Assembly (NCBI GenBank): GCA_937948815.1
Contig: CALFAM010000018.1
Location: 1-56,971, forward strand
DNA length: 56,971 bases
Reading direction: 5' to 3'
From: an uncultured bacterium
GTDB lineage: Bacteria > Acidobacteriota > Thermoanaerobaculia > Multivoradales > J023
The notes beneath the pieces are model-generated. The model saw only the letters and a program-made list of their open reading frames with translations. It was not told the origin of the DNA and made no database searches. This document shows, piece after piece, positions 35,201 to 41,235 of the stretch (the stretch's first letter is position 1; every line of letters starts with the position of its first letter). A program made the translations under genes and the position numbers.

Positions 35201-38200
35201 CATGTTGAAGTAGACCTGGAACAGCGGCGTTCGCGTCAGGTCACGGGGTGTGCCGAGGGCGTCGAGCAAGGCTTCGAAGGGCACGTCTTGGTGCGCGTAG
35301 GCGCCGACGGCCACGGCGCGGGTCTGGGTGATCAGCTCGCGCAGGCTCGGTCCTTGCTCGAGAGCGAAGCGCAGAACCAGGTGGTTGAGGAAGATGCCGA
35401 CCAGGTCTTCCGTCTCGTGCTGGCCGCGGCCAGCGATCGGCGTACCGACCGCCAGATCATCCTGGCCTGCGAGCCGACCCATCAGGGACGCGAAGACGCC
35501 GACCAGCGGCATGAAGAGGGTGGCGCCCTGGGCCTGGGCCTGCGCTTCGAGCGCCTCGCGCAGGGCCGCCGGCAGGACGCAGTGCACCCGGCCGCCACGG
35601 TAGCTGTGCGCCGTGCCGCGGGGGCGGTCGGTCGGCAGATCGAGATAGGGAGGAAGATCGCCGAGCGTTTCGGTCCAGTAGCCGAGCTGCGCTTGGTAGC
35701 GGTCTCCGGCCATCCATTCGCGCTGCCAGGCCGCGAAGTCCGCGTACTGGACGGGCAGTGCCGGCAAGGCATCGGTGATGGCCGACAGCCCGCGGTCTTC
35801 TTGAGCTGAGTCTTCCTGGGCCCGGTCTTCCTGGGCCCGGTCTTCTTGGGCCTGGGCGACCGCGGCCTGGTAGAGGGTGCCGATCTCGCGCGCCAGCACG
35901 CCCATCGACCAGCCGTCCGCGATGATGTGGTGCAGTGTGAGCTGGAAGGCATGCCCACCGTTGGCCAGCCGGACGAGGACGAAGCGCACGACCGGGCCGG
36001 TCATCAAGTCGAACGCCCGCGTGGCCTCGTGGGTGAGCAGACGCTCGAGCGCCGGCTCGCGGGCCGCATCCGGCAGGTCCCGGTGATCGACCAGGGTGAG
36101 CGGCAAGGGCGGGGCACCCTGGCGACCCGGTGCGTCGTGTAGCCGCTGCACCGGCTGCTCGTCGATCACATCGAAGGTCGTTCGCAGGCTGGCGTGGCGG
36201 GCAACCAGGGCGCCGATCGTGGCCTGAAAGGCCGCAACGTCGAGGTCGCCCGTAATGCGCAGGGCGAAGGGCATGTTGAAGGCATTGGTGCCCGGATCGA
36301 AGCGATCGAGGAACCACAGGCGCTCCTGGGCGAACGACAGCGGCAGCCAGTCCCGCGTATGGCTGATCGCCGGGATCGCGGACAGCGCCTCACTCTCGCT
36401 GCTGGCACGAATCTCCGCGGCCAGGCCGGCGGCGGTCGGACGCTCGAAGATCTTGGCCAGGGCGAGGTCGGTGCCAAATGCCTTGCGCAGCCGCGCCACC
36501 AGACGGGTGGCGAGCAATGAGTGGCCGCCCAACGCGAAGAAGCTGTCGTCGGCACCCACCGTGGCGACGCCGAGGATCTCGGCCATGATGCCGGCGATCC
36601 AGGCAGCCTCGGGGTCGTCGCTCAGGCTGACCGCTGATGCCCCCGTTCCGGGCTCGATGCGGGTTTCGGGCGGCTGCCGCGCGGCCAGCGCCTTGCGGTC
36701 GACCTTGCCAGTGGCGGCGGTCGGCAGCTCGTCCAGCACACCAAAGGCCGACGGCACCATGTAGACCGGCAGGCGCTCGGCGAGGAAGGTGCGGAGGGCC
36801 GCGAGCGGGATCGCCTCGGATTCGGCATCTGTGGCGTCGGATTCGGTCGACTCGGCCGGCGTCAGCCATGCAACCAGGCGCGGCTCGCTGTTCGCCTCGT
36901 CGCGGCCGAGCACCACGGCAGCGTCACCAACCGCCGGATGGGCGCGTACCGCGGCTTCGATCTCGCCGAGCTCGATACGGAAGCCCCGCAGCTTGATCTG
37001 GTCGTCGAAGCGGCCCATGAACAGGACGTTGCCGTCGGCCAGAAAGCGCACCTTGTCACCGGTGCGGTAGAGGCGCCCGCCTGCCGAATCGCCAAAGGGA
37101 TCCGGGACGAAGCGGCCGGCCGTCAACCCCGGTCGGCCGACATAGCCACGGCCCACGCCCGGTCCACCGATGCACAGCTCACCCGGGACGCCGGGTGGCG
37201 TCATACGGCCACGGGCATCGAGCACGTAGATGCGGTTCTCCGCCGAGGCGCGACCGATCGGAATGGCGGCTGGCTCGCTGCTGTCTCGGCGCGCCACCAG
37301 CTCGGCTCCGGTGCCGATGTCGAAAATCGTGCTGTTGATCGTCGCTTCGGTCGGCCCGTAGCCATTCCAGAAGCGCGTACGGTCCCCCGTGGCGCGCGCC
37401 AGGGTCGCCACCAGCTCGGTGTCCAAGGCCTCGCCACCGAGGTGGAGGACGCGCAGGTCCGGCAGCGTGGCACCGCCGAGCGCGAGCTCGCGGAAGAAGG
37501 CCGGCGTCGTATGGATGGTGTCGATGCGCCAGTCCTGGGCAGCTTGCTCGTAGCGTGCCGGATCGCTGCGCTCGGCCCGCGGCAGCGCGAACAGCGTGCC
37601 GCCGGAAAGGGCCGTCGTCAGCAGCTCGAAGACACCGAAATCGAAGCCGTAGGAGAGGCTCTGGAGTGCCCGGGTATGGTCGCCGAGGCCGAGCCGATCG
37701 ACCGCCCAGGCCAGCATCGGTGCCAGATTGCGGCGGCTGATCGTGACGCCCTTGGGCAACCCCGTGGAACCCGAGGTATAGATGACGTAGGCGACCTGGT
37801 CGGGGTCGAAGAGGCCATCACGGCTTCCGTTGCCGTTCCCGTGTTCCGCGGCGACACTGCCTGGTTCGTGGCCATTCGTCCCGTGGCCATTCGCGCCGTG
37901 GGCACCCGTGCTGGTGTCCTGGGGCTCGCCCTCTGCTGGGGGGCCGGCGGCTGGCAGCTCCTCGAGCACGATGACTTCGACCGGCTGGGGCAGGCGCGCC
38001 ACCAGGGTTTCGGCGCGCGCACGGTGAGCCGTGTCGGTCACCAGCGCGGCGACCGCGCAGTCCTCGAGCATGAAGGCCAGGCGGTCCTCGGGGTGCTGCG
38101 GATCGAGTGGCAAGAAGCCATAGCCCGAGCCGAGGATGCCGAGCATCCCCTCGAGGGCCGCGCCACCAGGCTCGACCAGCAGACCGATCAACCGGTCAGG

Positions 38201-39548: not shown

Positions 39549-41235
39549 GAGGGGAGCTTCGGTAGTGTTCGCGCCAGGCGCCGTAGCTCTCGCGACAGAG
39601 AGTCGGCGCGTTGGCTCAGTTCGCGATAGGTCACGGTGCCGGCGTGGGTGACCACGGCGGGCTGATCGGGGCTGTGCTCGGCCAGGCGTCGGACCGACGG
39701 CACGACGTCCGGCGCGTCGAGCCAGCACGTCGCGTTGGCGGCGCCAGCATCGGCCGCATCGCTCGTCTCGCTTCGCGACCAGCGGACGAGCAGGGCGTAG
39801 TCGTCGTCGCTCAGCCAGGGCAGGTCGACGATCGGTGTATCGGGTGCGTGGGTGGCAATGGCGAGGAAACGGACCAGTCGCGCCCCCATGCCCTCGACGC
39901 TCTCGGCATCGAAGAGATCTCGGTTGTACTCGATCGCGCCCGCCAGATCGCCGGCGCGCGGAACCTCTCGGGGCACCTCGGACTGCTCGGTGGCCGACGG
40001 CTCGGAGACTGGTGCAGACACCGGCGCCAGGGTGAGCGCGATATCGAGCTTGGCAGTCGTGAGCGGAATCGGGTGCCCGGTCAACCTCAGGTTTCCGAGG
40101 CGTGCCTCGGCGCTCACTTCGGCGGTCGCCTGATTCTGCAAGGTGAGCAGTACCTGGATCAGTGCCGGCGTGCTCGGGTCGCGCTCGGGCACGAGGGCTT
40201 CGACCAGCCGCTCGAAGGGCACGTCCTGGTGCGCATAGGCATCGAGCGCCGTTTCGCGGCAGCGCTCGAGGAGCTGGCGAAAGCTCGGTGAGCCGGAGAG
40301 GTCGGCGCGGAGCGCGAGGGTGTTGATGAAGCAACCGACCATCGGCTCGATCTCCGCCCGGGTGCGGTTGGCGATCGGCGAGCCGATGGCGAACTGGTCT
40401 TGCCCCGACCACTGGCCGAGAACGGCCTGGAAGCCTGCAAGCAGGGCCATGAACAGGGTCGCGCCCTCCTCGCGAGCGAGGGACTCCAACGCTTCGACCG
40501 TCGCGGCCGGAATCGCCAGACGGCTGGCGGCACCGCGTGTCGTTTGGAAGGCGGGGCGCGGCCGGTCTGTGGGCAGGCCGAGGGGCTCGATGCCGTCCAG
40601 CTTCGCGCGCCAGTGCTCCGTCTCCGCGTCGAGGAAGGCTTCGGTGAGGTGACGGCGCTGCCAGGCGGCAAAATCTTGGTACTGGCAGGAGAGTGCTGGC
40701 AACTGCGGACACGGGTTGCCATCCGCACCCTGGCCGACGTCTTCGGCCTGCTGGTACGCCTGGTCGAGATCGCTGATCAAGATCGGCATTGACCAACCAT
40801 CGGAGATGATGTGGTGCATCACCAGGATCAGATGGTGCCGGTCGGCGGCGGTGCGCAGGACGCGCAGGCGCAGCGGGGGCCCTTGGGCGAGATCGAACGG
40901 TCGACGCGTTTCGGTGCGCGCGATGGCCATCGCGCGTGCCTGCGCGCGGTCGGGAGCGAGGTGGGTGAGGTCGGTCACGGGCAGGTCGACCGGACCGGGC
41001 GGCGCAATGACGATCCGGGGCTCGCCCGCGAAGCCAGAGACATCCTCGGCCACGGTCACGAAGCTGGTGCGCAATGCGTCGTGGCGTGCCGTCACCGCGC
41101 TGAACGCTCGCGCAAGCCGCGCGAGGTCCAAGGCGCCGTCGATCTCGACATGGTTGAAAACGTTGTAGGCAGCGCTCTGGGGTGCAAGCTGGTGCAGCAG
41201 CCACATGCGCTGCTGGGCGAACGACAGCACGGTGG
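39545..41235 (-). other. Module 6 part 1: C6 and the N-terminal fragment of split A6
   Basis: C6 (~41235-39775) is complete, with HHIISDGWS near 40805. After a short linker, the A6 fragment (~39712-39545) shows VRRLAEHSPDQPAVV, core A1 VTYREL and the first helix, then leaves the A-domain pattern as RTLPKLPS and stops. No ATP-binding or carrier part is present on this polypeptide. Confidence 0.85.

Follow-up and report, generated by a model that had tools for sequence, protein, structure and literature searches.

A two-chain adenylation domain divided between cores A1 and A2, with a DUF3326 gene in the break

Adenylation (A) domains of nonribosomal peptide synthetases (NRPSs) can be interrupted by additional domains, which are inserted in frame and remain part of a single chain. 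The locus analysed here resembles them in that the coding region of an A domain contains an extra function. However, its insert, a gene for a DUF3326 protein, has its own start and stop codons and uses a reading frame different from that of the NRPS genes, and the A domain itself is distributed over two chains, with core A1 closing the first synthetase (NRPS-A) and the remainder opening the second (NRPS-B). The closest precedent is the corallorazine system, reported to contain an A domain that is split over the proteins Crz1 and Crz2 and active only when both are mixed (PMC11342130). It resembles our locus in that one A domain extends over two adjacent NRPS genes, but its cut lies between cores A8 and A9, past an embedded N-methyltransferase, and leaves the C-terminal subdomain separate. 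Here, by contrast, there is no A8/A9 cut beside an embedded methyltransferase; instead, the domain is cut between A1 and A2 (positions 100 and 104 of our A-domain model), which separates about 50 N-terminal residues, and an unrelated complete gene occupies the break. A further point of reference is SyrB1, described as a separate stand-alone A-T module (PMC8949500). The second-half protein of a relative of our locus, from Catenulispora, is likewise an A-T protein encoded beside tailoring-type genes, but A domains of the Catenulispora type differ in lacking A1 on their own chain.

We found no description of an A domain split between A1 and A2 in the open-licence PMC literature. As far as this search reached, the two-chain A domain cut at this site and combined with DUF3326 appears to be undescribed, whereas one active split A domain cut elsewhere has already been published. 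The first-pass annotation of this DNA, which knew of no such split, is thus upheld for the A1/A2 site but not for split A domains in general, given the active A8/A9 split reported for corallorazine (PMC11342130).

The window, i.e., the whole 56,971-nt stretch of DNA analysed, encodes both synthetases on the same strand (Table 1). Their domain layouts rest on models derived from domains of the window itself, with the terminal KS-AT-T-TE region added from Pfam; the A-domain model (556 positions) was built from 13 intact A domains found there. NRPS-A ends in VTYRELSQRADSLSRELRRLARTLPKLPS at its stop codon (39545), and NRPS-B starts from the ATG at 38227 with MPEPSPAMQPDRLIGLLVEPG, opening with the strand that precedes A2; its AMP-binding match in Pfam begins at model position 44 of 384. 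The split domain belongs to the AMP-binding family, with cores A2 to A10 present, and neither of its halves contains an internal stop codon. With the N-half reaching model position 100 and the C-half resuming at 104, about three A-domain positions are lost at the break. The arrangement envisaged in the first-pass annotation, with one A domain split over two megasynthases, little lost between the pieces and a complete separate gene overlapping both neighbours, is therefore confirmed in each of these respects.

Table 1. Features of the split A domain and its surroundings in the window
Feature	Position	Strand	Remarks
NRPS-A	39545..56971	-	5' end lost at contig end (56971); A-T, four C-A-T, C, A N-half
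Condensation (C) domain immediately upstream of split A	39899..41287	-	residues 5229-5691 of open frame
C-A linker and split-A N-half	39545..39898	-	model positions 4-100; ends just past first helix
Core A1	39617..39634	-	VTYREL
Overlap of NRPS-A stop and first possible DUF3326 start	39545..39548	-	4 nt (ATGA)
DUF3326 gene	38196..39548	-	450 aa from first ATG
Alternative DUF3326 start	39518	-	second ATG; 440 aa
Overlap of DUF3326 end and NRPS-B start	38196..38227	-	32 nt
Split-A C-half	36728..38215	-	model positions 104-555, cores A2 to A10; pocket DFFHHGGIN
Thiolation (T) domain of split module	36434..36646	-	
NRPS-B	2240..38227	-	split-A C-half, T, nine C-A-T, KS-AT-T-TE

Elsewhere in the window, the second A domain of NRPS-B (open-frame residues 1116-1689) forms a very long branch and has the pocket DPRHQVLRA, which resembles the aminoadipate code; it may be odd or divergent. 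NRPS-B terminates in a polyketide extension module with a release domain (2243-6736, minus strand), and the gene downstream of it (6-2243, minus strand), which is cut by the window end, encodes a MacB/FtsX-type permease that is likely an exporter.

The same layout recurs in other genomes; the first-pass annotation had called for a search for an N-half end, a DUF3326 gene and an NRPS start near A2. A pattern scan based on a DUF3326 alignment, covering 84,980 species with a single genome apiece and able to detect a gene only through one of two short peptide patterns, returned 34 DUF3326 loci, six of which contain N-half, DUF3326 and C-half in this order (L011, L015, L018, L021, L022 and L024). 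The six further split-A genomes stem from Acidobacteria, Aminicenantes, Blastocatellia, Thiomargarita (L021), the named strain Catenulispora pinistramenti NL8 (L022) and an Acidobacteriota bin (G500) that belongs to the order of the Aminicenantes genome; L011 lies on a contig of G001, a second species in the window's genus. At an additional locus, L014, which shares its genome with L015, N-half and DUF3326 are followed by no NRPS gene. In the two Herpetosiphon loci (L016 and L019), DUF3326 lies between NRPS genes, and the A domain of the preceding module shares the pocket type but is unsplit; in L033, DUF3326 follows an ordinary NRPS gene. The remaining 24 of the 34 loci show no NRPS domain in the available stretch around DUF3326.

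The position of the break is nearly constant. Wherever the A-domain model called the N-half, which it did in seven loci, this half ends at position 96-100 (that of L015 is clear by eye and scores under the model's threshold), and the C-half starts at position 104-107 in all seven loci that have one. DUF3326 occupies the break at each of these seven loci, and its start lies within -17 to +2 nt of the N-half stop in all eight loci with an N-half: -4 nt in the window, L011 and L015, -1 in L018 and L021, +2 in L014 and L024, and -17 in L022. An identical break with the same gene in six other genomes is more than chance would produce and, on these comparisons, the split between A1 and A2 with DUF3326 inside is a real and conserved architecture. 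All split loci with genome context were retrieved via DUF3326, however, so that a constant pairing of the split with DUF3326 cannot be claimed. The chains carrying the halves vary. Both are multidomain NRPSs in the window, L011, L015 and L024; the first chain of L018 holds a C domain and A1 and nothing more, and that of Catenulispora is no longer than about 94 residues, lacks any NRPS domain and is paired with an A-T protein. In the Catenulispora operon (L022:2495-10893), N-half, DUF3326 and A-T genes are preceded by purine-breakdown genes, a Rieske oxygenase and a thioesterase; we found no NRPS cluster with uricase and a Rieske protein described in the open-licence PMC literature.

The split domains also share a specificity pocket. 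In the window, L011, L015, L018, L021 and L024, all six of the split domains have DFFHHGGIN, and that of Catenulispora has DFWHHGGVN, giving the consensus DF[F/W]HHGG[I/V]N; the two unsplit Herpetosiphon domains have DFFHHGGIN and DFFHHGGVN. Pocket positions follow the GrsA numbering. The catalytic stretches YTSGSTGxPKG (with one T for S), NGYGPTE, TGD and IELGEIE are retained in six of six aligned C-halves. In a tree of 40 A-domain rows, whose bootstrap had not fully settled, six split domains formed one clade (99/96) with the two Herpetosiphon domains as its sister (99/100).

A profile search for this A type in a protein set, limited to lengths of about 280-890 aa, placed 42 proteins with this or a near pocket (starting with DFF, DFW or DFM) among the best 120. 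Twenty-four of them begin at model position 103-107, 12 are continuous from A1 and six could not be classified by their start. At least 12 of the 24 proteins beginning at the split point are of A-T size (566-618 aa). Several of the 24 (P0243, P0244, P0252, P0253, P0257 and P0274) come from contigs that measure between 90 kb and 1.5 Mb, which makes a contig end improbable as the cause of their missing A1. In a tree of 83 rows (from which, among P0241-P0290, the nine proteins P0273, P0275, P0283, P0284 and P0286-P0290 had been dropped for other pocket codes, and for which P0358 alone was kept among P0291-P0360, as the one with a DFF-initial code), the A type formed a single clade of 51 rows (SH-aLRT 99). 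Within it, five changes between the split and the unsplit state are required when six rows with an unjudgeable start are left out, and six if these are unsplit. P0258 and P0259, which are unsplit and nested within the split group, look like cases of repair through an ordinary N-terminus; other unsplit relatives carry linkers there that differ in length. At E 1e-135, the A type occurs in one of 293 genomes of Catenulispora's order, the Catenulispora genome itself, although the protein set includes proteins of this type under the names Actinacidiphila and Streptomyces (P0274 and P0276). Two plasmid records (Eleftheria and Skermanella) contain relatives of the Catenulispora A-T protein at E 1e-80, inside long NRPS genes.

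The protein encoded in the break clearly belongs to the DUF3326 family (PF11805; E 9.2e-81, 271.9 bits against a Pfam gathering cut-off of 25). It falls into a branch whose members are 48-75% alike, and eight distant aligned members, mostly cyanobacterial, are 30-35% identical to it. The PDB contains no credible sequence relative (best E 0.2, choloylglycine hydrolase), and its fold relatives in the PDB are weak; membership in the aspartate/glutamate racemase superfamily (arylmalonate decarboxylase), which would require the same fold across most of the protein, is at most a candidate assignment. No match was found on plasmids, and none of 47 viral-contig stretches that fit the pattern encodes a relative. 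In sampled whole genomes, the family was detected in 3 of 396 from the phylum, 2 of 34 from the Aminicenantes order and 1 of 162 from the Blastocatellia class, as well as in 1 of 394 from Catenulispora's class, again the Catenulispora genome itself. A title search of the open-licence PMC literature gave no paper linking DUF3326 to NRPSs.

The occurrence of DUF3326 follows the A type as well as the split. In the window's class (147-148 genomes), DUF3326 and the A type are each present in five genomes and coincide in four (Fisher p 1.3e-6, uncorrected for kinship and NRPS richness). Two genomes, G019 and G026, have the A type in unsplit form with DUF3326 elsewhere in the genome; G006 has the A type with no DUF3326 match, and G002 has DUF3326 and no A type. 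Such co-occurrence with an unsplit A domain, even at a distance, suits a substrate-linked enzyme better than a part of the split. Among 13 other DUF3326 genomes, only the two from Herpetosiphon had the pocket among the 20 matches listed, so that DUF3326 has other uses as well.

Scored with a model of the A1 region, ten N-halves reached 31.9-63.9, compared to 24.8-83.4 for 16 unsplit relatives (means 46.4 and 56.4, p 0.11), while randomly decayed copies averaged 22.8 at 70% identity and 7.2 at 50%. The N-halves scored below 32 unrelated intact A domains (46.7 versus 60.3, p 0.014). Between the window and L011, identity amounts to 45% for the N-half (23/51), 47% for the preceding C domain, 58% for the C-half and 66% for DUF3326. 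These values indicate that the A1 half is kept, near the level of the neighbouring C domain. When the unsplit relative L069 is modelled (mean pLDDT 88.7), the first A-domain helix at 80-95 is connected to the following strand at 106-110 by a loop at 96-105, and the cut is predicted to lie within this loop. A study on LgrA places A1 in contact with the back of the A4 pocket region (PMC10212144), implying that an A1-less body would be without part of its core unless the N-half joins it.

It is probable, based on these comparisons, that the two pieces re-associate non-covalently into a working A domain and that DUF3326 makes or processes its unusual substrate. The end of NRPS-A would supply core A1 and the first helix, the start of NRPS-B cores A2 to A10, and the overlapping genes would be translated as a coupled set. 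The N-half may then dock on the back of the substrate pocket, in the place that A1 occupies in intact A domains. The loop that follows the first helix would tolerate the cut, allowing the domain to work in two pieces. DUF3326 would act as an enzyme, producing or processing the unusual amino acid loaded by this A type, whose two-histidine pocket is perhaps suited to an acidic or ureido-type acid. Reassembly is the best reading because the catalytic motifs are intact, the pocket is conserved and the A1 half is retained. It is tempting to go further and see a class of two-chain A enzymes, in which an A1 piece of about 50 residues, an A1-less body and DUF3326, translated between them as the enzyme that produces or passes on the non-standard amino acid, form a three-part unit that joins substrate supply to adenylation and serves an as yet undescribed building block, although this generalization is doubtful.

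An error of assembly or sequencing could be suspected, as the window's bin consists of 371 contigs and is 81.75% complete, but the identical layout in six other genomes, including Catenulispora pinistramenti NL8, leaves this explanation practically without probability. We reject it, and with it one of the objections that the first-pass annotation had raised against its own reading. The pieces are also very unlikely to be the debris of an insertion beside a skipped module. The C-half is missing in L014 and the C domain upstream of the N-half is broken over several frames in Thiomargarita (L021:6662-8010), such that some copies may be dead, and the N-halves score lower than unrelated intact A domains. 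However, pocket and motifs are conserved between distant genomes, the N-half is retained at nearly the level of its neighbour, and the window's halves are free of stop codons. L014 (4669-9257) shares its genome with L015, where the locus is complete, and could either be a remnant or function in trans.

Two further explanations concern what the split is for. It might mainly be a docking device by which NRPS-A and NRPS-B recognise each other in completing one A domain. This idea, already put forward in the first-pass annotation, fits the four loci with multidomain NRPSs on both chains, which the halves would join. As a general purpose, it is nevertheless unlikely and does not hold up against Catenulispora, whose N-half stands alone on a short chain and faces an A-T protein, against the lone C domain that precedes A1 in L018 or against the A-T size of so many database proteins that start at the split point. 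Holding NRPS-A to NRPS-B may thus be a side benefit of the cut in the window. Alternatively, DUF3326 could be a physical third part that is needed to hold or load the split domain, consistent with its presence in the break at every locus with two halves and the coupling of its start to the N-half stop. Yet we consider this role quite unlikely, since DUF3326 is also found together with unsplit domains of this A type, next to them in Herpetosiphon and at another place in the genome in G019 and G026. It is present, too, in genomes that did not show the pocket among the 20 matches listed. The earlier suggestion that DUF3326 takes part therefore gains from its co-occurrence with the A type but loses as regards a component of the split itself.

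The split marks a natural cut site within A domains in several bacterial groups, knowledge of which would guide the dissection and recombination of NRPSs. The link of DUF3326, an unexplained family, to one A pocket defines a set of gene clusters that can be found by search, and the function of the family may become approachable through the substrate loaded by the split A type. In addition, annotation that looks for complete A domains would overlook the A1 half or label the second protein as truncated.

DUF3326 genes also recur in other neighbourhoods. At L012 and L020 (7.2-10.1 kb), a stand-alone DUF3326 gene is preceded by a Sulfotransfer_5 gene, and the gene that comes next (about 280 aa) has no Pfam match; L013 and L031 contain genes similar in size to these neighbours. 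The gene immediately after each of the distant, mostly cyanobacterial DUF3326 genes at L026, L032, L033 and L035-L037 codes for about 440 aa, and the one examined, at L033, encodes a relative of Orn/Lys/Arg decarboxylases.
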